From Heterotrichella gracilis (Eukaryota; Sar; Xanthophyceae; Tribonematales; Xanthonemataceae), in contig JAULBX010013762.1 of NCBI GenBank assembly GCA_032358255.1, positions 1 to 64,000 of the forward strand: DNA of 64,000 nt. The letters are read 5' to 3'. Under the pieces are notes generated by a model. The model did not search any database. It worked only from the letters and a program-made list of their open reading frames with translations, and was not told the origin of the DNA. The stretch's first letter is position 1, and each line of letters opens with the position of its first letter. Below are positions 1 through 64,000 of this stretch, one piece after another. A program made the position numbers and the translations under genes.

Positions 1-188
1 GGGGGGGGTGGATGGTGGTGCTGGCCACACTTCAGTTATGTTAAGCAGTGTAGTGGTGGTGTAGCTACGTACGTATGTGACTGCAGCATCTCAAGGTTAT
101 CCTGCTGTCACCCAAGGCGAATTTATACTTCTGTCCATGAGAACAACATTCAGAGGGGGAATTTGCAGTATTTTCCCTTCCGATTGAC

Positions 189-620
189 CCTGTAGGGTTT
201 GAAACTGCGCCCAGCGCCTCAAGATGATCACGCTGTCCCCCAAAGGGCCTCTACTAATTGTGGTATGGCTGAAAAGAAAAGTAATTAAATTTACTATACC
301 TTACTTCCCCTGTGCAGGGTGTGGAACTGCGGCGACCAGCGCCTCAAGATGATCACGCTGTCCCCCAAAGGGCCTCTATTCATAGTGATATGGGTAAAAA
401 TGGAAAGTATCTAAATTACCGTAACGTTACCTCCCTGTAGGGTGTGGAACCGCGGCGACCAGCGGCTCAAGATTATCACGCTGTCCCCTAAAGGGCCTAT
501 ATTCTTAGTGATATCGGTAAAAATGAAAAGTATCTGAATTACCGTACCGTTACCTCCCTGTAGGGTGTGGAACCGCGGCGACCAGCGCCTGAAGATGATC
601 ACGCTGTCTCCTAAGGCGGC
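189..620 (+). repeat. Fourfold tandem repeat of a splice acceptor plus exon head
   Basis: Four units of about 122-124 bp start near 189, 310, 434 and 557. Each carries a pyrimidine-rich stretch, a TAG or CAG acceptor, and about 55 bp coding for a variant of VWNCGDQRLKMITLSPK, followed in units 1-3 by AT-rich intron-like sequence. Unit 1 is the most diverged; units 3 and 4 are the most alike. Each unit offers a possible alternative 3' splice site, but only the last continues into a long open frame. Confidence 0.8.
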
Positions 621-996
621 GGACGAGGTGTTCACGCCCGCAGCAGACGCGGCTCCCGGGAGGCCAGATGGCTATGGCATGAGCTACGGTAATGGCAGCG
701 GCAATGGCATGACAGGTGGCATGACCGGGGCCAATGGCATGGCAGGCGCGGCAGCTGAGAGGGGCGGCGAGGGCAATGGCAATGGCACCGGCATGGCAGG
801 TGGGAATTGCTCCCCATTGTCCAGTGTCAGCTTGCTCACCTCTGGTACCGTATACTTTGTTGGTCGCATCAGTATTTCTGGGATTTTGTCTGGTTGCATG
901 CGTAGCAGTGGTTCAGCCAGACCAGCAGGTACTCGTGTGCCCCATGTCATCCGTGGTCATTCCCCTTATCTCCACCAAACCCTTCACAAACCCTAG
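557..996 (+). CDS. 3' end of an unrecognised protein gene (partial)
   Basis: An open frame begins right after a splice acceptor at about 560 and runs to a stop ending at 996. It starts VWNRGDQRLKMITLSPK and passes into a tail rich in Gly, Asn, Met and Ala (about residues 30-85, with repeats of the form NGMTGG and GNGNG). After that the composition looks less like coding sequence, and a donor-like GGTGGG near 800 means the true end may be spliced. Upstream exons are outside the window or not recognised. I do not recognise the family. The conserved-looking head suggests the end of a folded domain followed by a disordered tail. The head is repeated three more times upstream (see the tandem repeat at 189-620), and this copy is the only one that opens into a long frame. 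Confidence 0.45.
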
Positions 997-2387: not shown

Positions 2388-4291
2388 TCACAACTCAGAT
2401 AGCGGCTTGTTTGCAATCCACTCCAGAACCTTCGGCAGCGTTTGCTGCAGCGATGCAGCTGCTGCGGTTAGGTTCTCAAGGAACTCCTCCTCTGTCGCCC
2501 TGTCTCCTGCGCCACACCACACCAACAAAGGTTACATGCCATGGCAGGTAATGATGCATTGCAGGTAGCGATGCCCCACAACTGTTGGCACTGCTGCACG
2601 TTTGCAGGACTATGCAACGTCACCGTGCCATGCCAATAAGCTGCTGCGAGGCTGCTTGTCGGTGTATTGTAGATGCAGGAGCATGAAAAAGAACGCGAAA
2701 TGGTCTGTGGAATTGTTGCATTGCATGGATCCAAATCAGTGCATCTTCCTATCATAAGATGGTGGTTAACAGATCATACAACAAATTACAACAATCAATG
2801 ATATATATACATTTTCTTCAAAAAAAATGTGGTGGACCCTACCATCCACGATGTCGGTGATTGCCTTGAGCGAGAAGAACGGCGTCTCAAACTGGTGCGC
2901 TGCCCACGCGATGGCTGCCGCCTCCATCTCCTTCACCACTGCGTTGTTGGACTCCATAAGGTCCATGTCCTCCTTGGTCCAGTCAAGGGAGTTGCCGGAG
3001 GACACCACGCCACTCTGTACAGCAACAGTGCTGGTCAGCAAGCTGTTGTAGGACATCATAAAATGTGTGGCAGCGTGTGTGCCAGCATTTGTATGATTAC
3101 TTGACTGTGGTGGATGGCGAGAGTGTAATGTCGGCCACCGGTGCATGCAACCAACGGCAGCGCTTGGAGTAACCTAATGTGATGGATGCCTGGGGAGCAT
3201 GCAGCATTCAAAGTGTGGCACAGCACATACCTTAAGCTGAAGCGCCTTGGCTAGATTTTCGGTGGGAAGGGCATCATACAGTCCGATGCCATACTTGTCA
3301 AAGCCCTGCATCAGACATGCCGTGCGTCAGTCCCGAGCAAACCCACGACCGCAGCTGGAATAGGTGAGTGCTGTAGGTACACAGCAGCATGCAGACACAG
3401 GTGAATACCCTATACCCTAAAATGCATACCGAGATGGGTATGCGGCGGTCGTTGTTGGCGCTGGCTGTCCCCACAACCACAGGTGAAAACCCTAGCCCCT
3501 GAACCCTAACCAAGGCATACCGGGATGGGTATGCGGCGGTCGTGGTTTGCGCTGGCTGTCCCCACAAACACATCGCCAATGGCTGCCCCCCGCGCCTTGA
3601 ACCCGCCAGCTGTTCCCACACTGACAAGCAGGTCTGGCTGGAACTGCTGGATCGCCAGGTAGGCGGTCAGGGCGGCAGGCACTGTGCCCACGTTGTCCAC
3701 CCCAAACTTCTTACACTTCCCTGCACACACAATCGATGATCTACCTTGGATCGCCAGGTGGACATCTAGTGCAGACAGGGAGCAGGAGAGTACCGGCGCA
3801 AGACTGCTTACCAATGGGCCTGCAAAGCTGGAACGCAAGTGACCAACTACCTAGGCGTCCGGCCCTAGTGCACTTGGTGCTGCCACTAGTCGCCAATAGC
3901 AACAGTGGATAGCTAGATGCCAGAGAAATGGCAAGCGGGTAACTGGGCAACCTTGAGCAGGCTCCTCACCATTGCAAACGAGGTGGATGTTCATGCCAAA
4001 GTGAGTGCCAGAGAAGCTGACACAGGGTGCTGGGGGCTTGATCAGTGGGGGGTCGTCCTTTTTCAACTCCAGGTGGTGGATGATTGGGGCAGCCTCTGCC
4101 TCCATTGCTGTAGACAAACAGGCCAATTTTGAGGTCTAGCCGTATGTGATCCACCACAGTTCAACAGAACCAAAGCGTAAGGAGCAAAATGGGAGCTAGG
4201 CACAGTATGTGGCACACAGATCCATCCACCCACCTACGAGCACTACCACAGTGCCAACCCTCGCCTCCGTGCTGTCGTCAATGACCACCAT
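2388..4291 (-). CDS. MTN: 5'-methylthioadenosine (MTA/SAH) nucleosidase, plant MTN type
   Basis: This enzyme should cleave adenine from 5'-methylthioadenosine, and perhaps S-adenosylhomocysteine, in the cytosolic Yang (methionine salvage) cycle. Six exons: 4291-4234, 4107-3970, 3720-3521, 3305-3231, 3014-2843 and 2506-2388. All phases agree and give 253 aa, close to the usual length for plant MTNs. Visible motifs are VVVLVAMEAEAAP near the start (catalytic Glu24), NVGTVPAALTAYLAIQ, VSVGTAGGFK, DRRIPIP, KEMEAAAIAW (ribose-binding Met187-Glu188) and KAITDIVDG (catalytic Asp211), ending ANKPLSEL. The ATG at 4291 places the first strand as in Arabidopsis MTN1. It is divergent from FANCD2, with 976 bp between the start codons. 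A copy of the exon 3 3' end lies in intron 3. Confidence 0.93.
3428..3476 (-). repeat. Echo of the MTN exon 3 3' end
   Basis: About 50 bp in intron 3 repeats the end of exon 3 (coding ...DRRIPI) together with the start of the donor side. It lies about 90 bp downstream of the true exon end in gene orientation. Short CCCTAA-like motifs occur close by (near 3410-3420 and 3503-3508). Confidence 0.7.
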
Positions 4292-5267: not shown

Positions 5268-8200
5268 ATGGAAGAACAGCAGCGACAGAAGCGCCAGAGG
5301 CAGGAGTCCGGCATTGACCAGTTCCACCAACTGGTACGCTCCAGGCAGGGGAGCGCGTTTGGACTGTTTAGGGTTTGGGGTTTAGGATGGCCACCCAGGG
5401 TTTTGCCTACTGGCTACTGACACATGGTGCACACACTGCAGGTCGAGGACGGTGGATGCATTCTCAATGCAAGCAGCGACTGCTCAGTGGCTGACTCGCG
5501 GAAGTTCAAGCGCACTCTGTCCTCAAAACTGATGCTGGACGCCAGCCTGTGCACTGCTTTTGTGGAAGGGTTTGAAGAGCTTGTCTCGTCACCCGATGCA
5601 CTCTACTTTGCCTTACGCCCTATGGCGACAACCAACCAGGTACGTATAAGCTGATTATATTGGTATTGAAGTCAATTCAGCATGCTGACCGGAAGTGGTA
5701 AATAGCAGGGGTAGCCCTCCAGCAAATTGACAGAATTGGTTGCCAATGGGGCAGCATTGCATCCTGATTACATTCTATTGTAGAGCGTGAACGCCAGCGT
5801 TGTGCCCCGCAGAACTCTCTGATAACTGGAGACAGTTTTGTGCGCCTGTGCCTGAACATTGGGTCGATCCAGCTGGATATCGCTCGCATCATATTGGAAA
5901 AGCTGCCTGAATTTGGAGAGGAGATTGATGAGCAACGCCCTGTGCAGAGACTGATCCTGGGTCAATTCAGATGGTGAGCTCACCTAGTAGGACCCTGGTT
6001 TAGCACCTCAATGTAGGCACATTTCTGAAGGTGCAACAGACCAAATTGGAATGACTTCTGGGTACCCTTTCACTGCCAATGCCTGTCAAGTACTGCTTTT
6101 TTGGGGTTGTGCTTCAGCATGGTTCTGCTGCAGGCTGGATCACGTTGTCGACAATCATTTCCTGACCACAAAATTCCTGGAGGTCATGGAGGTGTGCCCA
6201 GCCGAGCTGCAGAGGGACATCATTGCATTCCTGCCGGAAATACTCTCAGATGATGACTTTGAGGTGCAGCCAATTTCCATTGCCATTTTCTTGTCCAAAG
6301 TTGCACAGTGCATCATGGTGGTGGATGGCATTTGGAAACGCTCTGGTGGATCACGCAGGCAGTTTGGAGTCGTTTGGTCGAGCTTGTGCACCAGGATTCC
6401 TCATTCCTCATGCCTGTGCTGGATTCGCTGGGCAACATACAGCTGGATGAACTGTATCAGGTATACTTGCATAATTGGTGCTGGCTCATGATTGTCGACT
6501 TCAACCTGCAAGTGAGATGCCATGAATCATGAAGGGCGGCAACTCATCTGCAGCAACTATGCAAGTCAGATGGGTTTGAGTAGCTGCGCATTTGCTGTAC
6601 GAGCAAAAAGTTCAAAGGACAGCTATGACAACGCGTATTTGTGTCTGATTGATGCACTCCAATGGATGCCATTTTATTTCCTCATGGGCGTGTGCACATG
6701 TAGGACAACGTCATCGACATGATCTTGGAGAAGTTTTCGGCTGCTGAAGTGGAGGACCTGGCGGGGATCATCCAGTACATGCTGTCGAATGCGAGCGCCA
6801 TGAATGTGGACAAGGTGTGTCCGCAATGGGTGGTTAAGAATCCTATGCATCAGAGGCTCTCGCTGGTGTTGAAGTAATGCTATGCGCAGGTGGTGGAAGC
6901 ATTGAGGAGCAACATCTATCTTGTGAATGAAACAGACCCTCGCATCCATCTCCCAGACAGAAAAGGCAAGGGCGCACCCAGCGATGCGCAGAAGCGCCCG
7001 AAGGTTCGGGTGGTGTTGTCCCTGAAAGCAGGCCTGCAAGCAAATCCACTCGCGGCTGATGTTTTCCTCAAGCAGATAAAAGCATTGACAGGTGGGTGAA
7101 TCGCTCCTGTCCTATGTTGAGTCATTTATGTGTGCTGCCTTGTCAGAGCATATGTCCACATGGCATTGTCAAGCATCAGCGTCATTCTTTTGCAGATCCC
7201 AGTGGGCACAAGGTTGTGGATTTCTGGGTGCTGCTGGTGCTGTACTCACTTGATGCAAAAAGGAAAGATGTGATGTCCATTTTGAGGAGGAAGTTTTCAG
7301 ACTGCCATGTCACCACAAACTGGGTGCGAATGTCCATTTCAGGGCACCAGGTGGGTCAATATCATCAGAAAAAGGTTTCAGTTCAGTCATTGATATGGCT
7401 CATGTTGTAGCCATGATACTACATGTTCAAATAGCTTAAACGTCATATCATTGCGATGCACAGACGCGTGCTTTGATGAATGCAGGTGGCGCTGCAAGGC
7501 TTGTACTCTTCCCTGCTGTTGATAGCTGGGGAGCTGCTGAGCAGCAGCAATGATGCTGTCATGGAAGCTGGCATCGTTGGGTTCCTCACCTTGTTTGAGG
7601 TCTTTGCTGATGCTGCCCATCGGCAGGAGCTCGTGAGGCAGATCCACGTGCACCTTGGGTGCCAATCACCGCACGAGGTGTCTGCAGCTCTGCATGTGCT
7701 CCACCATCTGTCGCAGCACTTCCAACAGGCACTGCTAGGCTTTGCCAGCTTTTTGACCAACATCCTGGATCTGATTGAAGCCTACACTGATGAACAAGTC
7801 CGCAAGGTACTCACCTGTGCTCGCACATCTGAAAGGCCTGCTGGCAGCTTGCGATTGGCACACAGGTTGCATGCACGCCAAAGCTTTGTTGGCTGGAGTT
7901 CATGCTGCCATCAGTGCTGCACAGGGAAAAAGATCCAAGATTCCTTCTCTGAATGCAGGTGTTTCAGGTGTTCAGTGAGCTGGTGTTCTGCTCAGCTACA
8001 GCCCAAGGCGGACAGGGTGGCAGATCCAGGCTAGAAGATGAGATGCACATCTTACTGCAAAAGGTATTGGCTTGGATGTGTGCCAGCAAAACATTTCCAA
8101 TTACATCATTTACATTTGCTGTCTGATGCATATCTGATGCCTGTAGAACCAAGGAAGTGTGCCTCATTTTGCAGCTCTCTTCTCTTGATTCCAAACATAA

Positions 8201-11200
8201 GCGAATCGGGATCATTGGCTCGGTTGCACTGGCCACTAAAATGGGCTGCATAGCGTCTGCTTCTGAAGATGAGACTGCCATTGGTGCGTCATATTGTCTT
8301 GCCAACACTGTTCCTTTGCGTGAAATGCACACACCAGCTCCTGCAATGGTGGTACTCCCAATTATGTATTGTGCGCACTTTGCAAATGTGATGGGCAATT
8401 TGCATTGAGTATTGAATGCAAAATGAGGCATGGCATACTCATTCAAACAATTTTATTTGTTTAAAATTAAAAAAAAAAAAAAAAAAAACATTCAATGATC
8501 TTGAACTGAATCAGTTGTTAATGCAATGTTAATGCAAATATGTAAACCAGTTCATGCAACAGCAGTATCTCCATTGCGAGGGTTTGAAAGCGTAACACAA
8601 CTGCTGTATGTGCATGACAGGACACAGATGCGGCGAGGCCAGAAAGCTGTTTCAGGCCACCATGGAAAGCGCGGGCAAATTTGCCAGCTGCTTTGCGTTC
8701 TTTTGTGACGAGCTGGCAGGGGCTGCAAGTGAAGCGCCTTTAGATGGTCATTTGCTGAAATGGCTGGAGAAAACATTAATTGATGATCTCAGTGACAGGT
8801 ATCTTGAAGATTTGCAGGAGGGTCAATTGGAGCCAGATGCAGCTAAAACACTGGTGAGCGACCCCTGCAAGTATCAAACAGTGCATGCTTGTGAGTTGGG
8901 ATGCGCTGGCAGCATGCATGCATTGTTCACAACATGCATGGATATAAGTTTGTTGCAAAATGAGGAGCTCAGGGCGAAGAAGGCCTGCCTTTCAGTTGCG
9001 GCCTATTTGCTGTGGCCTGGTTGCTGTGTTGGGTAAGTATCATTAGCCCATGTCGCTGAGAGTGTTGCATCAGTGTTAGGGGTTTACCACTGGGTGACTG
9101 TGCTGGATCCTGCGTTTCCCCGGTAGCATTGGTGACCATCAGTCCACCAAATCCCAGCACTTCTGTATTTGTAAAGCGCCATATTGCAAGCATGCTCGGC
9201 AACAAGGATTAGCACAGGAATGACGGTGAGTTCCAGGAGTTGACAGGATACTATGACTCGAGTGAGGTGTTTGTTGCCGTTGCTCGCAGTACACTCAGGG
9301 CGGGCCCATAGCAGGCCACTTGTGGTATGATGTGCAGCCAGACGATGAAAGCTCGTCAGCACTGCGGCTACTGCCACTCCAGGCATCCATGGATCAACAT
9401 GAAAGGTGATGATTTTGTGAAGATGGCGCGTAGGGTTGCTGTAGCCTGTACCATTCACCGGCAGCATCACCCCACCATTTCCAGGTTTTGCCAGCAGGCA
9501 GACAGACATTCTTGTCCTTGCAGGGATTCGATGGCCTTCATGCATGCAATGTTGCGCCTTCTGGTTACTATGGAGTACCAGCAGTATGGCAAGCTACAAT
9601 CAACAATGCTGCTGTACCTGCCACTACACTTGGTCAGCCCGTCACTGCTGCAGCCTGAGGGCTTCAAAGAGCTATCCCCTGAACGACAGAGCCTCATGAT
9701 TCAGCTTTTGTTCCATGCCATCAACTGGAACAGGGAGTTGGTGAACGCTGTGGCAGTAGATAGTGCCAGGTATGGGCAGCCTGGAGGCTGCATGGACAGG
9801 GCTTGCATTTGTAACTTGGCTGCGCTTGTAACTGTAACGGTCAGCTGCAGCAATGTTGCATTATATTTGATGTGTTGCCTGGCTGTTGCATTACCAGAAG
9901 GACTTTGATATCCCACTGTGGTATATTAAAGTCCTCCTGGCATTACATCGGTCGTGTACCTTACAATTCATGGATTGCAGGAGTGGAGGCGAGGAAGCTG
10001 AAACCAGAGCTCTGTCCTGCCTGGCCACTGCAATCAGATTGGAATCGCTCCTTGAGCAGTGCTTGCAGTCCTGCAATGTTTCCTTCAAGCTACCCAACCT
10101 GTCCAATCCTCTTTCAGAGTCAGGGGGATACGAAACCATCAGCAAGCGGGTAAGTCTGTGCCTTCTGCTAGGCAAGTACTGTAATGATCTAGACGTCTAG
10201 AAGTACTTTAGGGTTTTAAAGTAGGGTTTGATGATGCTAAGTGTTGCCTGACTGCCTGTGTGTTTCTGTGCACCAGACTGAAGCAGGCAAGCCACGTTCA
10301 AAGGCTAAAGGCAAGGCTGCTCAAGATGGCCAGGAAACCCAGGAAAACGTTGCTGGGACAGCGACTACAGCGGCTGATGGCCATGCATTGAAGCAAGTGA
10401 GGAAGTGCTACAGGCAGCTTCATCCAAGCGCCCTGGCAATGCTGCATGGGACAGCTGATGAGGCCTATGAAGCACTGCCACTGCTGCTGTATGCCCTCCT
10501 CGACATCAAGATGAAACTGGAGTGCACATTCTTGACAAACAAAGGCCCCTTTGGCAAACAGGCGCCTGCTGGAGGTTAGTCCTTGCTGCTTTCTGCGGTT
10601 ATTATTGCAACAGAAGGCAGGTTATTTTCCTGACGCAATGGTGCTGGTCCATGATAGTCTTGTGGCCATTCACAGGTGAAGCATTGGCGCCTGAAGCCCT
10701 GCTGGGAGCCTTGAAGCCATCTTTCCCCATGCTGCGAAAAGCGCTGGATGTTGCTTCCTCAGCAACCGAGCAGATGTCAATGGGGATGGGCGTTGATGAC
10801 GGTGCGTGCTCTTCATCAGCATGTGTTCCACTTACTGGTGCAGCTCTGTTGCCCAACCACTGCTACGCACTTATTGGGAAAAAGCTGATTTTGTGTCGGT
10901 GCAGCCGCTGAAGCCAATGCAGCAGCCTTTGGGAATGGTTGGCAAAGCAAATTGGAAGCCTGCAGAGAAGCAATGCTGCCAAGTCCTGCAGCAGGAAGGT
11001 ATGCTGAGTAATGCTGAGTGGCTGCTGCATGGCAGGCAGACATTTGTATACAGCAGACTCTCACATTTTAATTACATGTCATTTGTTTGCCATAATCTGC
11101 AAAGGTCCAGTAATGCAATTGTATTGTGAGCCTGGGTAAGCTCCCTAGTTAGTTACATGCATTCCAGCAAAATAGCCAGATTAGCAGTCAGTCTTGCCTG

Positions 11201-14200
11201 GGTAAGCTCCCTGGATGTGCCTTTCATCAGGTTGAAAAAGAATTTATAGTTTTTGCAATAGAGGTTTAAAAAACACTGCCTTATTTTCGACCCTGGTCTC
11301 CCTGCAGGGTGGTTGCTGCAAGCGTGGATATTGTGAAGCTCGTGCTCAGTTCAAAGAACCTGGAGTCTTTGCAAATGAAGAACCATGCCTTGCAGCTGCT
11401 CACTGTGTTTGCTCCTAGCCCATCAGCTGGCAGTGGCACCCAGAGCGGTGTGTCATGGCAGCCCCAGCAGGTACTGTATCACTGTGATACCTGCATTGTT
11501 TCAGAAATTGCTGTGTGTTTTCTCCTGTCTGATGATGCTCTCCTCATACTGCTGGGTTGGATAATGCAACGTTGTTAGATTGGTCTGCGGATGCTAGGAT
11601 AGCACAGCATTATCTCCTCGCTTTTCACAGCATCACATCCTTGCTTGCACAGCATTACATCCTATGCACAGCATTATCTCCTCACTTGCACAGCATTACA
11701 TCCTCACTTTCATGCATCACAGGTGGTTGAGTGCTGCAAGGAGGCATACGCGTACTTTGAAAACGTTGCGGGCAACCAGCGAGAGGATTTTGAAGTTGCG
11801 TACAACTCCATCGTGGTCATGCACTCCGTCCTGCAGCTGGCAGAGTTGCACAACCTGCCAGAGCATGAGGCGATTCAGGCCTCACTGCAAGATATGCGTG
11901 GTGAGGCAATAGCTGTGGACATACCCATGCCAGTGTGCTATCTTTGATTGAATGTTCCCTGACAGGCCCATCCACGGGCGTTGCTGTGAACCACAGTATA
12001 TGTATATGTACATTACTCTAGTAGCTATCAGAGGGTTAAAGTACACATACATACAATACATTCACAAATGGTGAACCATTGTCTGTGCATATACAGGGAA
12101 ACTTGCCATTGCTTCCAGTATCATGCTCGACAAGGACTGGTTGCCAGCAGCACCTGACGCACACCCTGATAGCGGCTGGCGCAGCAGGAGCAGTGCCCTG
12201 TACCAGCTGCTGTCTTTGAGCATCACCTACAATGCAGACGCATCAGGCCACATGCTGCACCTGCTGCAGGTGGGAGTTGTAAATGTTGAGAAGCACCCTT
12301 TCATTGTGCAGTTCATGACAGCTATCAACCCACAAAGCAGCCATCAACCACAAACTATCAACCCACATTCAAATTACAGGAGAATGTCCCACATTTGTGC
12401 ATGCCTGTGACGTCACCCTGTGAAATGCAGGACGTGATGCCCCAAGTTCCTGCACAGATGACAGGAAAGCACGCCCACACCACGGTCCAGGGACACCCTT
12501 CTCTGAGCAATGGTACCCTGGTGACCTGGTACAAGGTGCTGGCTGATCGACTGCTTGAAGCCTGGTCAATCTTCTGCAAGGGATTGCTGCAACTCAAGGC
12601 CCAGTCAGGGTACGTCATCTGTCACCAGGCAATAGTTACCAAAAATGTCAGGGTGTCGTCACATGCATATACTCAGAAGCCATATTATCAATCCACATGC
12701 CAAGGGTCGCGATGACTATTAAGGTACTACATGGTTGCTAGTTTGTTTGACAACGTGCAAGGTGTGAAGCGCTGTGCTCGATGCATCTGAGCTTACATAA
12801 TGCACTGCCTGTGCATATTGGCATGGGTATAATGGACTTCAAATCATTTCTCGGTCCGTCACATCTGCTGTGCCGATGCAGCAATCATGTTACCCCGGAG
12901 GAGCTGGAGGGTCTGCAGCACCAAATGGAAGGCTGCGTGAAAGCGTTTGCCTCGCTGGTGGAGCTGACAAAGATTCACCCCAATCGCAGGTACAGTCTAT
13001 TGCGCTGGTCACACAAGTCAACAGTAACTGTCAGTACTTTGCGGCCTGTGGAGGACATGAATGCATGGCATGTGGTCACATTTGGCAGCGCATACCTCTG
13101 AAGGACACGCATGCCACCTGTACTGCGCATACTTCTGAGTGAAACTCGCATCACAAAAGACTGCTTCTTCGCTCAAATTTACAAGCAACACGTGCTTACA
13201 GCAAAACACTTACATTCGAATCTTGCAGCCCCATGCTCGGGACCGCCCTCAAGGCCACGCAGCGCATGCTGGACCTGCTGCTCAAGTCCATGGCCTTCTG
13301 GGAGGCGCACTTTGCATCCTGCAACAAGGAGCTATTTGTGGAGTGCATCAAGAATGTGCAGAAGGGCACACGCATCACGCAGTCCATCTGCGGGGACAGC
13401 AAGTCCCGCAAGGACAAGTCCCTGACCAGCAAGGTATTACCCTTATTTAGGGCATCATTGCAACCTGGCAAAATCGGCCAGGAGTCCAGATTATTCCTTT
13501 CTACCATCTTGACTGTTTGAAATGACCGCTGAGAATTGTGTTGTGAACACGTGGTGTTATGTGCAGGTCCCAGGTGCAAAGAAAGCACTGGAGCAGTTCC
13601 TCTTCCGCATGCGCAGCTTCCTCACAGCAGCAGGGTATCCCAATAGTCTGTGGATGGGTAATCTCAAGCACAAAAACCTGGCAGGAGACATACTGGCCTC
13701 TCAGGTAATCAGCTGTGCATGATGGGTCACGCACTAGAAGCGTCTTGCTGTTATGTATTTCAATTACCTGTAATTCACGGTGTCGACTAGTTCACTTAAA
13801 TTGATAATTTGGGTGCAAGCTGCTCAGCAGTGATCGATGCTGACTAGTCCTGTGGTACTGATCGCTGGTGGGCTCACCCAAATGTAGCTAATGGGACTGG
13901 TCTGATATGGGGATCCTGATGTACCGGATCAAATACATGTGGGCAAATTGGGGCAGAATGCGTCTGCAGAGTCCCATGGGTAGACATGACGTCATGTCAT
14001 TTGATGTACTTGATGAGTTCTCTTCATGTGCAGGCATATCCAGATGAAGAGGAGGAGGAGGACGAGGATGCAGAGGTGTCGGCAACTGACTCGGTGGGTG
14101 GCAAAACAGATGAAATGTCTTGCCCAAAAGTGGCTGCGGAAATTGCATGCACAAAGCCTGTTCATATATATTCAGAAGCTTGACTGCACTGCTCCTGCCA

Positions 14201-14474
14201 ATGCGTGTGCGTATCCATGCAGGCAATTATGTAATGTCTGTGGCAGCGTTACTCTCACAAAACTGATGTAATGTGTCAGTGCACACAGAAACGGGGTAAC
14301 CAAGCTGGCTGCCACCATGTCTAAGTGCAATAACTTTCCAATTCTTGCTGTGTACTATGTAGCACTCTGTTGCCGCAACTGCCTTGTGTGCAGGCGTCTG
14401 CATTGCATGATTGTGATTAAGTTTTCTCTCATGTGCAGGAGGAGGGAGAGGCAGCCAGTGGTGACGAGGAATGA
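5268..14474 (+). CDS. FANCD2: Fanconi anaemia group D2 protein
   Basis: FANCD2 forms the ID complex with FANCI; after monoubiquitination it clamps DNA at interstrand crosslinks and stalled forks in the nucleus. Exons: 5268-5333, 5442-5639, 5813-5973, 6134-6263, 6359-6460, 6704-6814, 6890-7091, 7196-7350, 7486-7806, 7959-8063, 8175-8283, 8621-8853, 9290-9405, 9524-9769, 9981-10149, 10277-10574, 10676-10801, 10905-10998, 11308-11470, 11723-11900, 12097-12269, 12431-12609, 12882-12989, 13229-13433, 13567-13704, 14034-14093, 14439-14474. The 4,182 nt stay in frame, giving 1,393 aa (human about 1,450). Family blocks: KLPEFGEE...QFRWLDHVVD, RDIIAFLPEIL, HKRIGIIGSVALA, SLWMGNLKHKNLAGD and an acidic C-tail (PDEEEEEDEDAE...ASGDEE). 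Lys482, the last codon of exon 9 (7804-7806, context EQVRK|VFQVF), aligns with human Lys561 (QQIRKLF), the ubiquitination site. The gene looks whole. Confidence 0.95.
8469..8488 (+). repeat. Poly(A) tract in FANCD2 intron 11
   Basis: A run of 20 A follows TTAAAATT in an intron. It is a simple repeat, or the tail of an old retroposed fragment; no recognisable element precedes it. Confidence 0.7.
11130..11212 (-). mobile_element. Tiny LINE 3'-tail insertion framed by a 17-bp direct repeat
   Basis: In FANCD2 intron 18, GCCTGGGTAAGCTCCCT occurs at 11130-11146 and again, identical, at 11196-11212. Between them lie 49 bp that match, on the - strand, the 3' end of the LINE fragment at 45515-45760 (shared cores CATGCATTCCAGCA and CCAGATTAGCAGTC, with GTTAGTTA tail units). 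This is what an extremely 5'-truncated target-primed LINE insertion with its target-site duplication should look like. Confidence 0.75.
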
Positions 14475-15221
14475 GCGTGCTGTTCTGTTAAGTGCCGCAT
14501 GGTTGCAGTCAATTTTGCGGGATGGGCTGGGCATCCACCGAGAGAAATCGATACGACTATCCATGCAAGCAGTGTATATTAGGTTTTGAATGGTTATCCT
14601 TGTAGTAAAGGCAGTGCATGTGGTTTTAGGTGCAAAGTGTGTAGCGCGGGAACAATCATCCATGGAGGCAGGTAGAGAAGGATCTGGCGAGAGTTTGGGT
14701 CTGGAAAAGAGGGTTAAAGCTGTGGCAAATGTTGTTTGGACAAACCACATTTCTCAGGACGATGGTTGTGACTAGCACTCCCCATGGACATGTCGTGAAA
14801 TTTTCAAAGTTCAGTGGACAGATCCTGGCACTTTGGACATGCGAAACATGCATGCAAATATTCAAATTTTTGTGGGCCCATCTTGGGCTGATATAATATA
14901 CTATGATACACAATGATTGTGCACTGACCGGCCACTCAGTGTAACACCTAAGTTTCCCCGAATTGAGCTGAGGTGGGCACTGCTGTGTTTCTGTAGGCTG
15001 TGTGGTTCTATTGGCAATGTACTGAAACGTTCATACGATGTACATGGGTAAACCCCCAGCCTGCGCTCGTAACGGTTGAAGCCACGCCTGCCTGTCGTGA
15101 CTTCACTCTACTGTAGCAGTAACTGTACGTGGCAGCCGTATCAGCAACTTACTGTATCACAACAGAAACGTTGTTGACTTGGGCTACAGCTCTGACCAGA
15201 CTCTGTCGGACTCACCCACCC
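14475..15221. other. Intergenic region after FANCD2
   Basis: About 750 bp between two tandem + strand genes. It should hold the FANCD2 3' UTR and the promoter of the next gene. A TGTAA occurs near 14940 and could be a poly(A) signal, though it is about 470 bp from the stop. No other structure was seen. Confidence 0.4.
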
Positions 15222-17811: not shown

Positions 17812-25432
<7,621 letters not shown>

Positions 25433-51364: not shown

Positions 51365-51477
51365 GTGTCTGGGGTCTTGAGGTCTGTATGTGAGGCATTC
51401 TGCAGCGGGGACATTGGACAAGTGACAGTGTCCATAATGTGAGGGCTTCATTCAAGCAAATTGGTTTCTATTGGTTT

Positions 51478-52195
51478 TCAAGTATATGCACCAGCCAAGG
51501 CTGGACTTTTCCCCTCCCCATATGGTATTTCCCTTTTCTTTCGTTCTAGTGATCAAGATGTCCGTGCTTGCAGCATCGTTTTACCACCTCTCCATATGTT
51601 TGAACCCGAAGTATTGGGCACTAAGTTATATATGAAGTGTGAGATTGAATGTGACACAGGTGGCTTACCCTCAGCCCGTGCAGCTTGGAACAGTTACTTC
51701 CAAGCCCTAGTTGGACAAACTGCATGAGATCCCAATAATTGGCCAGATACATGGAGACTGAGTGGAGGACAGACATTCAGTTTTTTGGGTACAATACCCA
51801 CACGGTTTAACGAGCCAGGTTACTTATGGGTCGGCTAGGTGCGTGCATGCATAACCAGGGTCTTGCCCCGAATGCATGCATGCCAATGAAGCCGGCTTGG
51901 AAGTTAGGAGGGACTCACAGTCTACTTGCCTGGACAAGTTGTCAAGCTGCATTTTCTTTCAACCCACCTCCCCGTACGTTGCGGTTTTAAGCAGGCAGTT
52001 CACGAGTTCTTTTTGTAAACATAGCTATTGCTAGCATACACACCCCGCGGTCCACAAGGGAAGCAACCCACTGCAAAGCATGCAAGCAACATATATGCTG
52101 GTTGCATACCAGTAGCAAGCCGGAAGGAACCCATCTCCTTGGCTTGCAGTGGGTAGTCCGCGATCCCTCGTGACTGACAAGGACTTGCCAAGGGC
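51478..52195 (+). repeat. Dispersed repeat, copy A
   Basis: About 720 bp that match 57897-58590 in the same orientation with substitutions and indels. Shared blocks include GCCAAGGCTGGACTTTTCCC versus GCCAAGGCCGGACTTTCCCC, GTGATCAAGATGTTCCG, CCAGAAGTATTAGGCACTAA, GAAGCCGGCTTGGAAGTTAG and GTGACTGACAAGGACT. A frame of 88 codons opens in this copy but not in copy B, so it is probably not coding. The rest of the 1.55-kb gap between genes (51178-51477 and 52196-52728) shows nothing else I can name. Confidence 0.8.
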
Positions 52196-52728
52196 CGGCT
52201 GCTCGCATTCCGTTATCGCTACCATGAGTTGTAACCACCATTGTCCGAGCACTCTCAAGTGCCACTCAAGCTATAGTTGCCAGTAAGCCACAAGGTAGGC
52301 AGGAATCTCTGGTTTCTCAACTCAAACATGTAGATCTGTGTCGGGGAGGTTGCTTATGCATGCATGCATATTGGCTGGGTGCCGGCACGCCCAGGAAAGC
52401 CAGTGGCCCCCCTTGGGGCGCAAACGTTTTTCTCCGCCTGTTGCAAACCTCTTTCTTACCCACGCCATGATCCACTGAAGCAAGATTGCTTTCCTTGCCG
52501 TCTATGTTTTGCAGTTTTCCTGGCTCATGATATCATAAGCCCTGATATTAGGGGATAACTCTCCTGGCATAGGGGTGCAAACCCACGCTTTGAAACCTGT
52601 GAGAAACAAACAGGGAGTGGTGAAAGCCTCAAAGTGTTTTTTGACACGCAACCAAACTTCTTGTTTAGCAGGTGTTTGACCAGTCTCGACCTGTCAGCAT
52701 TGGGTTGTGGGGTTCGGCGTCTTGTCAA

Positions 52729-56771: not shown

Positions 56772-56823
56772 GGCTTGGGTGATTTTGACATCAACACCCA
56801 TGGGGTATTGACCCTACTCAATG

Positions 56824-56896
56824 GCGTGGCAACCTGTTCTAGCTGTCGCCATTGGCGTAACTTATACACAGTGACAGCTAGAACAGGTTGCCACGC
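56824..56896. repeat. Perfect 24-bp inverted repeat (hairpin)
   Basis: Arms at 56824-56847 and 56873-56896 are exact reverse complements (core CAACCTGTTCTAGCTGTC), separated by 25 bp. It lies 53 bp after the kinase-like stop. It could be a terminator-like hairpin or the end of a foldback element. Confidence 0.85.
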
Positions 56897-56900
56897 TGTT

Positions 56901-57058
56901 GAAGTAGCATAAGCAAAGTAAGGTGGGGCAGGAGGCCCCTGATGACCCGAATAAAACCCCGCAGTTCAACCCTAAATGCCTAAGGCGAAACTCCTGGGAT
57001 GGCATTTATTAGGGTAATCAGGGCCTCCTGCCCCACCCTATTTCGCTTATGTTACTTC
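56901..57058. repeat. MITE-like element with 42-43-bp inverted repeats
   Basis: The left arm, 56901-56943, and the right arm, 57017-57058, are reverse complements with about five mismatches and one indel (shared core GGGGCAGGAGGCCC; outer ends GAAGTA...TACTTC-like). The 73-bp spacer shows no coding sequence. The size (158 bp) and terminal inverted repeats fit a short non-autonomous DNA element. Target duplications were not identified. Confidence 0.65.
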
Positions 57059-57822
57059 CGACTTGGGAACAGCGTTGTGGCTGTGGCAAGACATTGTAAC
57101 ACCTGATCTCATTTCTGGTTGAAGTGACACATATTGCCCCTGGTGGTGCAGACCCCAGTCGGCATAACAGACATTATCTTGAGTCTCTCTGTGGCCGTAC
57201 GTGGCACAGGCTGTGTTTCAGTGCGAGACCTGCACGGGGTCATCCAAAACCCTACCAAAGCTGGCCGCCCCAAGGTTTTACCCTAGCATCCTCACCCCTG
57301 AGAAGGTGGACTTGCATCTCAGCTGGCCAGGAATTTTGGCTCATATCAGGTTTGTTGCTAGTAGTGGGTGCCAGAAGTCTGTGTTACACGATCGCTGATG
57401 CCAGCATGGATAGGTCACTGAACCTGTAGTTTGACAACTGCATGGGCCAAGTGTATAGCATGGCTGACGTTGAACAGGCTAGCTCATATGGCTGTGGGTG
57501 GTTGATGCTTAAGTTGGTCTAAGTGACCAGTATGGTGCAAACATAGCAGTCGCTGTCAGCGAATCCTTGGGTCCTGTGCTCAGTCTGTCTGCCTGGCCCA
57601 GTGGCTTGCTCCTGGGCGCTTCACGATGGGGGTGGTGGTGGGTGCTATGTCCTTTGCCTCGCACAGGTGGGACTGGTTGATGGTGAGTGCTGGTGCAGTG
57701 TCTGGGTCTGGGTGTCTGCCTTCCCGCTGGGGCTGGTCCCTGGGAGTCCTTGGCTTCTTGACCTGGGGTGATGCGTGCCCCTCCCTGCACACAGCTGCAC
57801 GGTGAGACAAGCATTAGTGGCC
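57059..57822. other. Intergenic region with one weak open frame
   Basis: A frame at 57201-57398 (AQAVFQCETCTGSSKTLP... ending VLHDR) has a CxxC pair and non-random-looking sequence, but no start, splice or family support. Otherwise nothing is recognised. Confidence 0.3.
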
Positions 57823-58657
57823 AGATGGCACAAAGCGTGCAGTGTGCTGCATGGGCCAGTACTGAGTAGGGCAGAAACCAGCACCCGAGTGTCGCAAGTG
57901 CATATGCACAGCCAAGGCCGGACTTTCCCCTGCCCATATGGTATTCCCCTTCCCTTTCTTTCTAGTGATCAAGATGTTCCGTGGTTGCAGCAGTCGTCTT
58001 TCCACCTCTCCATATGTTTACAACCAGAAGTATTAGGCACTAAGTTATAAAAGAAGCGTGAGATTTAGTGTGACACACGTGGCTTTGCCTCGGCCCTTGC
58101 AGCTTGAACAAACCTTCCATGCCTAGTTTGCCAGCATAAACTGCAAGCATGAGCATCCCAGTAACTGGTCAGATGCATGGAGACTGAGTGAGGTACAGAC
58201 AGTGAGCAGATGGCCCAATACCCATAAGTTTACAGAAGCCGGTTACTTATGGATCGGCCTGGTTGCATGCATGCATAACCAGGCATCGTCTGGCCAAATG
58301 CATGCATGCCAGTGAAGCCGGCTTGGAAGTTAGGAGGGACTCGACAGTCTACTCGCCTATACAAGTTGTCAAGCTGCATTTTCTTGATTTCACCCCGTCT
58401 CCTCGTACGTTGCGGTTGTATCGTTTTTGAAACGATTCCCTTGTGCACCACGCCCCCGCTGGGTCCACAAGGGAAGCAACGCATTGCAAACCAATTCAAG
58501 CAACATATGCAAGCCAGAAGAAATCCACCTCCTGGGCTTTCAGTGGGTAGTCTGTTCTGCGACCCTTCGTGACTGACAAGGACTAAAGGGTAGATGGCAC
58601 AAAGCGTACAGATGTGCTGCATGGGCCAGTAGGGCAGAAGCCAGCACCAGAGTCGCA
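57823..58657 (+). repeat. Dispersed repeat, copy B, framed by about 70-bp direct repeats
   Basis: The internal part, 57897-58590, matches copy A at 51478-52195. It is framed by two direct repeats, 57823-57896 and 58592-58657, which share AGATGGCACAAAGCG, GTGCTGCATGGGCCAGTA and GGGCAGAA.CCAGCACC. The second repeat ends exactly at the ATG of the Na+/H+ antiporter. Copy A has no such frame. The short terminal direct repeats and 0.8-kb size recall small TRIM-like elements, but I see no primer-binding or polypurine site, so the class is open. Confidence 0.65.
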
Positions 58658-61600
58658 ATGGCGTTGTCCATCCTGCAGGCCATGGCCGAGAAAAAGGACC
58701 CCTTTGCGTTCTGCCACTCGCAGGACGTGACGTACGCTCACCGTGTGGATGACCCAGGTGAGAACCCACCTCCACTGGATAACTGCTCCAAACCTGGTGG
58801 CGAGGCCCAAGGCAAGCATGCATACCCAAGTATTTTTGCAAACCAGGCGTGATGCGGACGGTGGTTGGGTTAGTGAAGGTGCCGAATACTATCCTTGACT
58901 TTGGGTCTCGCGTTGCGGTAGTATGCTGGGTTGGACTTTAGTTCTGTACTAGTCCGCGCACATGCCTCGCCACCCTGTCATGTGCAGCGTGCACGAACCC
59001 GTTTAGATCGAGCCCTAGCACACTTGTATAGAACAGTAAGCTTCTCCGGGCTTTGGATCACGATCCCTGCAAAGAGCTAGCTGCTTAGGGGCCAGGCGTC
59101 AATCAGCTGTCAGCAATGCATGCCGATTCCTCCATGTCTTGTTTCAAGCCCACTTGGGCATTGGCTGTGAGATACTGCGGCAGACTTGTTGCTGCATAGT
59201 CTACCAGGTGTGGGTATATATTAGGAAGCTAGACTAGAAGCTAGACTAAGAAGCGCGACCCACCATGGCGCAGCAGGTGGACTGCCAACAGCATGGGTTG
59301 TCAGAGGCAATGCAACAGCCCAGCAAAACCCAGAATATGCTTCACTATTGCACCATTGCACCCTCCATGATGCACCATTGCATCCGGTCCAGGATAATCC
59401 CCTTCACTGCACCCGGTTTAGGGTATCACGCTTTGGGTAGGGTATGGATGTCTGCTGCCCCGCTCCCTCCACTACCCTATGAGGGTAAACCAGCACGCCT
59501 GCCTCTCAGTTCAAAATGAGGCAGCATCGGCCTTATTCCAATGACCCATTACTCCCCTTTGTCCCTGCACCCTCAACCCCTACCTCCCCTTGTCCCCAGA
59601 GCACTACAACTTCTGTGCGGTTCCCCTGGCTGGCTGGGATGCGCTGCTCTTTGCCTCGGTGGCGCTGCTGGTGGCATGCCTGCTGCATGGCAAGGCCACG
59701 GCGGTGCTGGTGCTGGTCGCAGGTGCGCAAATATGGCAGTAAATGAGGGGAAATAAGGGGAAATAAGATAAGATACGGATGGAAAAGTGTAGGGGTGCGG
59801 GCCTGCTGCATGGCAAGGCCACGGCGGTGCTGGTGCTGGTCACAGGTGTGCAACTATAGCAGAGAAGGAGGGGGTACATAGGGGATTATGGAAAGTGAAT
59901 GTATCAAAATCATGCGTTTTTTTCTGCTGTGTTTCAAAATTGTTGTTTCCCGCAGGTGGCCTTGCCCAGGGCCTGAACTTCCCCTTGAACCTTGGCCCCT
60001 GGAGTAACGCGATCACCTTGTGGCTGGGCATCCAGCCTGGGGAGCTGTTCTTCTACATTTTCCTACCCCCCTTGCTGCTGGACTCCGCAGTGCACCTGGA
60101 ATTTTACATATTCAAAAAGGTGTGTGTGGGGGGTTGAGATAATTATAGCAAGTCATGTAGGCAAATGGCGCCACCGTGGGACTAGCCACCATCAATTCGT
60201 GTGGTTCCATGCGATTTTGGCCTTTTACCTATCACCCCAACCTTATTTTGCCGCAGATGGTCATCCAGATAATGATCCTTTGCCTTTTTGGTGGTGGCGA
60301 GCACTACTGCCCTCATGACCCCTTTTGTTAGGAATTCATACAAGTCACATTCCCCTGGTGGAAAGACTCAGTGCCATATTGGCCGTTTCATGATCCATGC
60401 ACAATCACATTTTGGGCGCACTCTATTTTTACAACCCCCATTGATCACAGATGATCGTCCAGATCATGACCTTTGCCTTTCTGGTGGTGGCTGGCACCGC
60501 TGCGCTCATGACCCCTTTCATGCTGTGGGGCCTTGACCTGGGTGCGCACGGCTGGCACTGGACGCACTGCGCGCTGTTTGCGGCAATGGTGGCGAGCACG
60601 GACGCGGTGGCGGTGTCTGCGATACTGAAAACAGGTGGGGAGTGGGGCGGGGTTTGGGAAGCGATGTTGGATTGTATGGGGAGGGAGCGCGGGAAGGTGG
60701 TGGTGTGGGACTGAAAATAGATGGGGAGGGGAGGCGGGCATGGGAAAGCATTAGGGTCTTGACTTGGGTGCAAATGGGTGCCACTGGACGCACTGCGCGC
60801 TGTTTGCGGTGCTGGTGGCCAGCACGGAAGCGGTGGCGGTGTCTGCGATACTGAAAACAGGTGGGGAGGTGGGGCGGGAGTTTGGTGGTGTTGTACTAAA
60901 ATGAGGTGGGGAGGTGGGGTGGGGCTTAGGAAGCGATGCTGGATTGTATGGGGAGGGCGGGCGGGCGGGCGGTGGTGTGGTAATCAATGAAGTAATGTCC
61001 AGTGCTGTTTTGCATCCTTAGCTTCACCTCAGATCTCGTGTACAAGCCCGCTGCAACCAAACCAAGCACCGCCTTGTTGCCCCCACTGTGACCTCCCTCC
61101 CTGTTATGTGCCCCACGTGGCTCCCCCCACCACCACCCATTCCCCCTCCAGGTGGCGGCCCCGAGGACCTTGTTGTGCTGATGGAGGGGGAGTCGCTCTT
61201 CAATGACGCAACTTCCATCGTGCTGTTTGAGATCTTCAAGGGACTGGTAAGATGTAATGCCACATTGTGGTGGAGGAAGACGAATTTTGAATTATGAATG
61301 ATTGGTTTCAACGGGCTGTACGGTGAAGTAACTGAAGCATTGCATTAGCCAGTAGCAGCAGTTCAACATGCGCCTGAAGTCCCCTTGTGTCCTGTCCTTG
61401 GTCCACATCCCCTAAACCCAAAATCCAACCCCCCCAGATTGCCAAGGGTGCACCACTGTCTGTCATGGCCGTGATAGGGTGGGAGATGAAACCCTAAACC
61501 CTGAATTATACTATCGTGTCACTGTAGGTTGCCAAGCTGGCTGAGGGTGGCAGTGGCGCCTCCATGTCAGTCATGGCAACACTGCCTGTGATAGGCTGGG

Positions 61601-63829
61601 AGATGACATATCTGGCGGTGGGGGGTGCGCTGTGCGGGGTGGCGTTTGGCGTGCTGACGTCAGCCTTCCTGTATTTTGTGAGGTACTACAGGGGAGGGAA
61701 GGCGCCACAGGTGAGGGGGGAAAGGGGACTGGTAATGGCGACTTTGGGAAACCCAGAAAGATGAAGTAGCGACACATAAAAATGGGCTTCAGCAGGCAGA
61801 CAGCGCAGGGACACAAAACACGCTCTAGCTGGTGCACCACAAACCCTAAACCCTAAACATGGACACCTCAGAATGCTGGAACCTAGGCGCATCCTAGACT
61901 CCACCCATCCACCCCTTCTGCTGCTTAATTATATCACCTTTCTTTCCGTCGCTGTACCCTCAAAAATTGCGAGGGTTCACATACCCCCCATTTACTCCCC
62001 CAGGAGCTCTCAGCCATCCTTGCATTCTCCTACATTTGCTTCTTCGTAGCCAACGGGCCCCTCAAGGTGTCTGGAGTCATCTCGGTGGTGGTGCTAGGGC
62101 TGTGGGGGTCAGCCACCCACCGGTGGGGGGTGGCGGCCAACACCGCCAAACCAGGGGGGGCGTTCGACTCGGTGTTTGAGACTCTAGGGTTCATCCTCAA
62201 CCACATTGTGTTCTTCTTTGCGGGGGTGTCGGGGGTCAATTTCTTTGTCAGGTGAGTTTGCTTTTTGCTCAAATTATGTGCAAGCTTTGGTGTGTAATCA
62301 CTTGGATGCACAATGGAGCAGGGACAATGTGAAAGCTATGATGAGGGGGTAGTGATGTTTGTTCCAAGCTGATGTAATTGCTTGTCAAAAGTGTATCTTA
62401 TATCAATTAACTCTCGTGGACGATGCTGGTTCTGCACCATCCATTAGGATTCCAGGGTGCTTGCCCATTTGCCGTTGCTTTCCACCCATTACCTCCTTTC
62501 ATGGCATTCCCCCTCACTTTCAGGTCATCTGTGGCTATGGAGCAGCACAGCTGCTGCTGCAGCTTACCAGCCTATGCTGATCCAATTGCTTGTCTATATT
62601 TCAGGCATGCATTGACCAGTAATTACCTGCCCATCCTGATCCAGTTGCTTATCAATCATGAATGATTACCCTGCCCAGGCTGATTTTGCTTGTCATAATG
62701 CCACTTCCTCCCCTTGTTTCCTCAGGTCATCTGTGGCTATGGAGCAGCACAGCAGCTACTACTCCCTGCTCTACCTGCCCATCATATACGCAGCCATGTT
62801 CCTGTTGAGGGGGCTGCTCATACTCATGTTCACACCGCTGTTCAACCTACTAGGTGAGGCCAAAAACCCTCACTAGGGGGTATTCAACCTACTGGGTGAG
62901 GCTGAAACCCTTACAAGGGGGGTGTACCTTAATGAAGGGTTTGCCCTTACTCATGTTCACGCCGCTGTTCAACCTACTAGGTGAGGCCGAAAACCCTTAG
63001 GTTACAATGACGGTCCATATTGTGCTCATGCACGCCACAGACAGGGGGATTGATGCAAGTTGAGTTGCACAACAGCGCTTGTTCTGGGGCAGGGGTGCAT
63101 ATGCTATTACGTTGCCACCAACATCTCGGGAAAGCCAGCGCAGTCTTTTTCCCACTTTTAAATCCTAATCTTGATTAGTGGAATCGCCCCCGAAAATTGC
63201 CTCCCCATGCGTCATCTTCACCATCTGGGGACAGCGAGTTATCGTCATTTCGTTATGACGTTTCAACGATTTCTCATACATTTTGGGTCAATTGATCAAT
63301 GCTTTTCCACCCCCGCAGGCGTGCGCCTCCCCCTCCCCTGCGTCCTGTTCACCACCTGGGGGGGCCTGCGGGGGGCACTGTCTCTCATCATGGCACAGGT
63401 CATCATCATGGATCCAGTCATCACACAGCACTTCCCAGCCATTCAGAGCCAGGTGACACCCTGCCACCCTCAATACTGAACCCCAAACCCTTAAACAGGT
63501 CTTCATCATGATGACCAATTATACCACAGCATTTCCCAGCCATTCAGAGCCAGGTGAAACCCTGCACCCTCAACCATTGCATAAACACCTCTACCTATGG
63601 CCACCTTTCATACCCAAAAGTGAGGGCTTGTCAAGCCCAACCAGTCATGGTGTGTGTGTGATTGGTGCAGATGGTGCTGTGGACCGCTGGCTTTGTGCTT
63701 CTCACCCTACTCATCAACGCTCCATTAATCCCCTGGCTGCTGTCGGCCACGGGGCTCAATGCAACGGACCCCGTCAAATTTGAGATCCGGGGCAAGGCCA
63801 AGAGGGCCCTTATCCGCTACACCAAACAG
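58658..63829 (+). CDS. CPA1-family Na+/H+ antiporter (3' end outside the window)
   Basis: Membrane antiporter swapping Na+ or K+ for H+, of the NHX/SOS1 group. Exons: 58658-58757, 59600-59722, 59956-60119, 60451-60634, 61152-61246, 61528-61710, 62004-62251, 62726-62853, 63319-63452, 63671-63829 and on past the edge; in frame for 506 aa. The start MALSILQAMAEKKDPFAF was chosen because exon 1 ends in phase 1 at a GTGAGA donor and joins exon 2 as DDPEHYNFCAVP; an ATG at 58682 is the alternative. Seen: TM segments (WDALLFASVALLVACLL), GLAQGLNFPLNLG, the amiloride-site-like region FFYIFLPPLLLDSAVH, ASTDAVAVSAILKTGG, the ion-binding EGESLFNDATSIVLF, and WGGLRGALSLIMAQ. The last two fit CPA1 exchangers. 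A cytosolic tail probably follows (FEIRGKAKRALIRYTKQ). Confidence 0.9.
59799..63556 (+). repeat. Set of splice-junction echoes in the antiporter gene
   Basis: Exon 2 3' end (59799-59850), exon 4 5' end (60253-60330) and 3' end (60761-60872), exon 6 5' part (61437-61489), exon 8 3' end twice (62880-62910, 62945-62985), exon 9 3' end (63495-63556). CCCTAAACCC-type motifs lie between source and copy at 61490-61502 and, weaker, at 63480-63496. Some copies keep a usable GT donor. Confidence 0.8.
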
Positions 63830-64000
63830 GTAAAGCACATGAGTCCTTTCCAAGACCCTTACCCACATCTCCACAGAAGGCCATGCCAAGTTTCTACCAT
63901 TGCTAGAAATTATTCCAAGCCAACCCCAAGCTTATTATGCCCATACATTGTGGTCAAATCCGCCTGTAGTACATTCTAAAAGCCATTTTCGTTGCTTGTA

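Follow-up and report, generated by a model that had tools for sequence, protein, structure and literature searches.

The first 64 kb of contig C139 (JAULBX010013762.1) in the 68.5-Mb assembly of the alga Heterotrichella gracilis, referred to here as the window, raises the question of how partial copies of exon ends, which we call echoes, came to lie in the introns adjoining their source exons. The original prediction counted at least 35 such copies in six genes and in a gene fragment at the left edge. We examined a working set of 254 kb made up of the window, the 10-kb flank to its right, and a further 180 kb taken from other contigs in 18 stretches. In all, 25 stretches of 10 kb had been taken, from contigs chosen by number and not by content; L004–L009 (contig C1, six of the first 20 stretches) were left out as bacterial, and L001–L002 were duplicates of the window. 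The window had been selected for its echoes: together with its flank (74 kb) it supplied 60 of the 142 primary repeat pairs described below, and the other 180 kb supplied 82. Exons and introns were labelled by a small gene finder self-trained on the 254 kb from sequence only, without RNA, which returned 40 genes and 439 introns (median 265 nt) with the splice consensus CAG|GTGNG at donors and TGCAG|G at acceptors. The gene models were checked in part against solved homologues and Pfam; predicted window proteins aligned with AKR4, OSCA1, and OsSOS1, and matched PNP_UDP_1, Aldo_ket_red, and the combination of Aminotran_5, MOSC_N, and MOSC. Other genes are named by their appearance, and we take them to be PRP40-like, FANCD2-like, kinase-like, and HDAC-like. 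In gene content and splice consensus the genome looks green-alga-like. Some echoes were mislabelled as exons by the gene finder, which lowers the exon-end copy counts given here and blurs the exon assignment of individual pairs.

Exon-end echoes in adjoining introns are real. After masking of telomere-like tracts, as in all repeat-pair counts unless called unmasked, the 254 kb contained 180 direct local pairs and one inverted pair, compared with none of either kind in a control (one Markov resample, as for the tract control below). Aligned lengths ranged from 32 to 220 nt and identities from 73 to 97% (5th to 95th percentile of length). The 180 direct pairs condense to 142 primary pairs: 120 include an exonic copy, 20 lie wholly within introns, and two lie wholly in intergenic DNA. 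In the unmasked window, 92 direct versus 19 inverted pairs were found within 3 kb at E ≤ 1. The polarity is nearly absolute: exon 5′ ends have a copy upstream in 25 of 263 exons and downstream in one, and exon 3′ ends have a copy downstream in 27 of 263 and upstream in none. Exon middles were rarely copied (3/263 and 6/263), and a random control gave 0/600. A chance origin is thus excluded by the imbalance of direct over inverted pairs, the empty shuffle, and the empty random control. The window itself holds 43 primary direct pairs, 34 of them with one copy that includes 15 or more exonic nt, distributed over the OSCA-like (8), aldo-keto reductase (AKR; 8), PRP40-like (8), SOS1-like (6), MOCOS-like (2), and MTA-nucleosidase-like (1) genes and the left-edge array (1). 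These counts agree with the original prediction in number and in the genes concerned; its claims that 3′-end copies lie downstream and 5′-end copies upstream, and that the events were repeated, dense, and of differing ages, are likewise borne out. Across 34 genes, echo density ranged from 0 to 0.9 per intron and showed no link with exon GC, intron GC, or intron length. No exonic pair was found in the FANCD2-like gene (25 introns) or in the kinase-like stretch of the window. The FANCD2-like gene (window 5268–16097) contains a single pair, which is non-exonic, and a single telomere-like tract, unlike its neighbors.

The copies are additions to the genes and decay neutrally. Homologues fit a single copy: alignments with AKR4 take one copy of each doubled stretch, and 13 residues of the doubled OSCA stretch (47014–47198) have no counterpart in OSCA1. 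Among 117 pairs, the gene finder called one copy an exon in 88 and both copies exons in 29. Mismatches at the three codon positions amounted to 168/1501, 157/1513, and 293/1501 in the former and to 36/603, 42/601, and 82/606 in the latter, and 50 of the 56 exonic indels over the 117 pairs were not multiples of three. This is the pattern of one neutral and one constrained copy. One could suppose that the echoes are duplicate exons with a function in alternative splicing, as the 29 pairs with two exon calls would suggest, along with a predicted exon of 48 nt that is doubled with both of its splice sites (43781/43988). A test for mutually exclusive exons found no coding constraint on both copies in the 117 pairs, and the mismatches, the frame-breaking indels, and the single-copy homologues make this idea very improbable; we rejected it on the mismatch and indel pattern. 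The graded divergence and the coding-aware mismatches also speak against an assembly artefact, which we regard as negligible in probability. The copies, although neutrally evolving, may plausibly supply a steady stream of decoy splice sites.

Three features that the original prediction did not mention bear on how the echoes arose, namely telomere-like tracts, two preferred distances, and a near absence between genes. Tracts of TTTAGGG/CCCTAAA (score ≥22) numbered 204 in the 254 kb, compared with one in the shuffle and 16–23 for four permuted units. Their location is almost exclusively intronic (190 in predicted introns, 13 intergenic, and one exonic), and 93 of the 183 tracts in introns of at least 60 nt have their midpoint 15–45 nt from the nearest splice site (34 expected). 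The assembly as a whole contains 5,629 exact double repeats and five instances of a reversed control pattern. A donor motif lies at most 30 nt ahead of the double repeat 241 times, compared with 66 times at 200–230 nt, and double CCCTAAA, with overlapping matches counted, precedes an acceptor motif 353 times versus 219. The tie of these tracts to the echoes is new. Of 149 pairs, 61 have a tract in the gap between source and copy, whereas among 2980 random intron zones 338 contain one. Echoes accompany 12 of the 54 donors that have a tract within 50 nt and 11 of the 321 other donors, and the corresponding figures for acceptors are 6 of 30 and 22 of 341. Echo density follows tract density across the 34 genes (rho 0.65, p = 4e-5), and tract density is related to median intron length (p = 0.04). 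Within introns, G-rich and C-rich sense tracts occur at 43:31 in the first third and 14:40 in the last (p = 3e-4), a trend that fits either exon-side telomere addition or selection for branch-point or pyrimidine sequence. Tracts within 40 nt of acceptors in the 254 kb are C-rich on the sense strand in 21 of 25 cases and might serve there as branch point or pyrimidine tract. The genome-wide pattern search also returned an echo-like array in which a donor motif and a TTTAGGG tract occur three times at 112-bp spacing (contig C23:72994–73249).

The distance between source and copy is bimodal. For 140 of the 142 pairs (offset below 300 bp), the two components have means of 100 bp (standard deviation, SD, 19) and 189 bp (SD 26), and a two-component mixture (Bayesian information criterion 1464) fits better than one component (1502) or three (1466); 44 pairs fall at 175–210 bp and 16 at 140–175 bp (p = 2e-4). 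The shorter class prevails in the window, and the longer class is frequent on contigs C103 (11/19) and C131 (9/16). Splice-junction type was assigned to 110 pairs (66 donor and 44 acceptor), and 32 of the 40 typed pairs that bear a tract have offsets below 140 bp. In the shorter class (45 pairs), offset (SD 15.4) and exonic copied length (SD 17.6) vary to a similar degree and a fixed distance is not clear; where a tract is present (28 pairs), the offset grows with copied length (r = 0.43). Matches extend deep into the exon and only a little into the intron, with medians of 44–61 nt and 8–20 nt, respectively, in all identity bins. At the junction, identity averages about 0.9; by +12 nt it has dropped to about 0.5, and by +30 nt to 0.25–0.4. 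The two-distance pattern and these unequal match limits are new. Of 104 pairs, 27 have a spacer that resembles the sequence behind the copy (z > 3; by class 6/27, 9/21, 1/8, and 11/48; grouped, 15/48 short and 12/56 long), although most young pairs do not.

We tentatively favor, with a confidence somewhat short of even, a reading in which the echoes are scars of end-joining repair after staggered breaks within or next to exons, with telomeric repeats added to some of the ends. The two strands would be cut at offset positions in or beside an exon; both sides would then be filled in and the ends rejoined, leaving a short junction-spanning segment present twice. In the class near 100 bp, break ends would often gain TTTAGGG repeats, which would place a telomeric tract at the join, 15–45 nt from the splice site. 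Selection would purge duplications lying wholly within exons. Those that span a junction would persist, since the outer splice site remains usable and the additional copy becomes part of the intron; as the intronic copy decays neutrally while the true exon is constrained, the exonic part of the match would stay visible longest. The orientation of the copies (direct with one exception), their polarity, their surplus over the homologues, their neutral decay, and the telomere-like tracts, with their place in introns, in the gaps of pairs, and near splice sites and their correlation with echo density, count in favor of this reading. An added spacer predicts the rise of offset with copied length in tract-bearing short pairs, and plain tandem duplication predicts the likeness of spacer and post-copy sequence in 15 of 48 short pairs.

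Several observations weigh against this repair reading. In the 19 typed pairs with an identity of 92% or more, the median match reaches 46 nt (donor) and 45.5 nt (acceptor) into the exon and only 9 nt and 10.5 nt into the intron, a limit of about 10 nt that a random break would not produce; a 98% pair in the HDAC-like gene of contig C131 reaches only 3 nt. The original prediction took the pattern to be that expected if each event duplicated a short segment spanning a splice junction. The copies do span junctions, but many are not simple tandem duplications: in young copies the match mostly ends within about 10 nt of the splice site, and what separates the copies is either unrelated or telomere-like sequence. 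In the longer class (30 pairs), the offset hardly varies (SD 9.7), whereas the length of exon copied does (SD 21.2; r = −0.1), which makes added filler unlikely there, and three spacers searched in the assembly matched only themselves among the best candidates scored. Zones flanking the copies are also rich in tracts (28/149 upstream and 38/149 downstream). In several arrays every copy has its own tract, so that the tract was within the duplicated unit and was not filler. Donor- and acceptor-type echoes show no difference in tract orientation (p = 0.47), and intergenic pairs are near background. The repair reading explains neither the splice-site limit, nor the constant distance of 190 bp with its unique spacers, nor the near absence of echoes from intergenic DNA.

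A second reading is exon-bounded copying. Here, a mark on the exon (a nucleosome, an RNA–DNA hybrid, or the pre-mRNA as template) would lead to exon sequence and about 10 nt of flank, and no more, being copied and placed about 100 or 190 bp away in the adjoining intron. The loss of identity beyond the splice site in young pairs, the fixed offset with varying copied length in the longer class, the existence of two distance classes, and the restriction of most of the signal to genes all agree with it. It is harder to reconcile with duplications that run through the intron (four rows of 167–218 nt at 67–76% identity), with the spacer likeness described above, or with the shorter class, in which the distance is less clearly fixed, and we consider it rather unlikely. 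A fuller formulation, possible if doubtful, is that a gene-restricted process copies exon ends to a limit about 10 nt past the splice site and sets them about 100 or 190 bp into the adjoining intron, while in the shorter class telomere-type repeats are added at 15–45 nt from the splice sites; exon chromatin or RNA structure, and not DNA sequence alone, would then determine extent and distance.

The comparison of genes with intergenic DNA bears on a further possibility, that unbiased local tandem duplication occurs everywhere and is seen best at exons only because selection, perhaps with gene conversion, preserves one copy while introns diverge fast. Shared 9-mers at 90–130 and 180–210 nt were abundant between exon and intron, weaker between introns, and near background in intergenic sequence. 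The ratio of intron–intron to exon–intron matches is about that expected from the faster decay of two neutral copies, the spacer homology in part of the pairs exceeds chance, and exon–intergenic 9-mers peak at 180–190 and 200–210 nt, albeit with few matches (13 and 24); all three agree with unbiased duplication. The intergenic 9-mer background at both distances does not, nor does the count of two intergenic pairs among 142, though the sample held only 46.6 kb of intergenic sequence. The youngest pairs should run through the intron, and they mostly do not. The exonic share of the pairs in the 254-kb sample was compared with a null of uniform breaks with viable ends, with 15 exonic nt demanded of data and null alike. 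The comparison leaves out 21 of the 142 pairs as beyond both size classes, and one further long pair is intergenic. Exonic shares in the short class were 27/31 (≥90% identity) and 30/42 (<90%) against a null of 0.37, and in the long class 10/11 and 36/36 against 0.60. When detection of intron-only pairs was halved, a crude factor of two, the nulls rose to 0.54 (short) and 0.75 (long), and an exonic excess persisted in three of the four age and size classes (p = 1.2e-4 and 0.019 for the short class, 0.20 and 3.3e-5 for the long class). We judge unbiased duplication unlikely. CpG depletion was similar in exons (0.58), introns (0.47), and intergenic DNA (0.57), and exon-specific nicking driven by methylation is therefore without clear support.

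The tracts could also act before the copies. If intronic telomere-like tracts stalled synthesis, the growing end might slip back about 100 or 190 bp and recopy the template; the adjacency of tracts and copies, their correlation between genes, and the arrays with a tract inside the unit would fit such template switching at replication barriers. The class near 190 bp is mostly free of tracts, however, as most tract-bearing typed pairs have short offsets, and neither the splice-site limit nor the intergenic deficit of tracts and copies follows from it, so that we judge it improbable. Intron gain through tandem duplication of an exonic AGGT segment, with both new splice sites derived from one, would leave donor and acceptor flanks alike in register. 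Only one of 420 introns shows this, and the mean in-register identity is 0.251 versus 0.250 in controls; the idea is highly improbable, and we rejected it as the bulk source. The single candidate for such a gain is a 102-bp intron (L015 4787–4888, reverse-strand orientation), the length of which equals the short offset class. A mobile introner-like element would leave related filler in its spacers. Among 120 tract-masked spacers, only one match (14 nt) between distant spacers was found, neither a terminal inverted repeat nor a motif at the ends was conspicuous, and the three spacers searched in the assembly matched only themselves among the best candidates scored. In the unmasked spacers, the matches listed (40 of 566) were mostly telomere-like, and folding at z < −2 was seen in 11 of 67 spacers. 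A mobile element or shared filler family was rejected for want of a repeated family, and its probability is as slight as that of an artefact.

Several known systems resemble the echoes in part. Tandem duplications from fill-in at staggered breaks involve the telomere-linked CST/Pol alpha machinery (PMC8355091); they share with the echoes short adjacent direct duplications and a telomere-linked fill-in, whereas the echoes add a tie to exon ends, two distances, a spacer, telomere-like tracts, and a very high density. Mammalian interstitial telomeric sequences, inserted at double-strand breaks, are likewise short non-terminal tracts, a minority of which have a site duplication (6/130 rodent and 4/25 primate loci; PMC2246262, Table 1). 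In contrast, the Heterotrichella assembly has thousands of double repeats, which in the sample are mostly intronic, near splice sites, and accompanied by exon copies. In potato RdRp, a tandem duplication across an intron–exon boundary created a new intron in a single case (PMC4974935); here the junction-spanning duplications are many and the copy lies within an existing predicted intron. Novel introns have arisen through exon duplication in Drosophila (PMC2891723), where one copy of the duplicated exonic sequence became the intron, unlike the rare in-register fit seen here. Introners are also linked to introns and form repeated families for which nucleosome linkers matter (PMC9860276), unlike the spacers here. 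Among the matches listed in our literature search (titles and abstract openings, with subscription papers mostly outside its coverage), exon-end echoes were not found described, and no paper was found that joins telomeric repeats, introns, splice sites, and exon duplication. The novelty appears to lie in the density of the echoes and their tie to splice junctions. They connect small tandem duplications, internal telomeric repeats, and intron growth, which are usually studied separately. If this connection holds, up to about one-fifth of internal exons in the sample would bear a readable, datable scar (52 same-side hits per 263 exons, in which both ends of an exon may count), the rate and rules of the process could be measured from sequence alone, and effects on splice-site choice and intron length would become testable.

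The echoes catalogued in the window are listed in Table 1.

Table 1. Echoes in the window, with window coordinates and strand; identities are those of source and copy.
Gene	Span	Strand	Source and echo	Offset or period (bp)	Remarks
Left-edge fragment	188–614	+	Exon 5′ end with acceptor, four copies	Period ~123	Last copy (from 564) is the predicted exon
MTA-nucleosidase-like (PNP_UDP_1)	3424–3572	−	Exon 3′ end 3515–3572, echo 3424–3481		Telomere-like spacer
PRP40-like	17819–17949	−	Exon 3′ end 17903–17949, echo 17819–17864
PRP40-like	21151–21455	−	Exon 3′ end 21366–21455, echo 21151–21237	215
PRP40-like	22915–23167	−	Exon 5′ end 22915–22968, upstream echoes 23027–23079 and 23119–23167		CCCTAAA-type tracts between
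PRP40-like	23470–23678	−	Exon 3′ end 23602–23678, echo 23470–23546		Telomere-like spacer
AKR	27274–27607	+	Exon end, donor, and TTTAGGG tract, three copies	Period ~110	AKR4 alignment takes one copy
AKR	28025–28342	+	Exon 3′ end 28025–28137, echo 28230–28342	205	AKR4 alignment takes one copy
AKR	28594–28765	+	Exon 5′ end 28705–28765, upstream echo 28594–28654		Telomere-like spacer
AKR	29321–29500	+	Exon 3′ end 29321–29393, echo 29428–29500 (97%)		Telomere-like tract behind each copy
AKR	31313–31501	+	Exon 3′ end 31313–31374, echo 31440–31501 (92%)		Telomere-like spacer; match stops 2 nt past donor
MOCOS-like (Aminotran_5, MOSC_N, MOSC)	35716–35877	−	Real exon 5′ end 35716–35787, echo 35806–35877 (94%)		Telomere-like spacer 35788–35805
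OSCA-like	43781–44148	+	Small predicted exon (48 nt, at 43781/43988) doubled whole with both splice sites	207	Adjoins 100-N gap
OSCA-like	45175–45434	+	Exon end, donor, and CCCTAAA tract, three copies	Period ~100
OSCA-like	47014–47198	+	Exon 3′ end 47014–47082, echo 47130–47198 (96%)		Spacer 47083–47129 with CCCTAA repeats; match reaches 9 nt into intron
SOS1-like	59678–59873	+	Exon 3′ end 59678–59750, echo 59801–59873
SOS1-like	60254–60518	+	Exon 5′ end 60448–60518, upstream echo 60254–60325	194	Spacer 60326–60447 matched only itself in assembly search
SOS1-like	60528–60885	+	Exon segment 60528–60657, copy 60754–60885		OsSOS1 residues 132–159 aligned twice, one extra
SOS1-like	62520–62760	+	Exon 5′ end 62722–62760, upstream echo 62520–62558 (95%)	202

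Other repeats in the window are of different kinds. A direct repeat of 700 bp (51479–52185 and 57895–58584), 76% identical and 6.4 kb apart, is unlike the short echoes; its second copy is flanked by direct repeats of about 90 bp (57806–57897 and 58575–58658) and resembles a small element with terminal repeats. Hairpin-like inverted self-matches of about 97 and 164 nt occur at 56814–57058. Outside the window, the loci left out of the sample (L004–L009) come from a contig of 894,458 bases (C1) and have a GC of 0.33–0.37, with long unbroken open reading frames in L004 that look like Bacteroidota proteins; we presume a bacterial contig inside the algal assembly.

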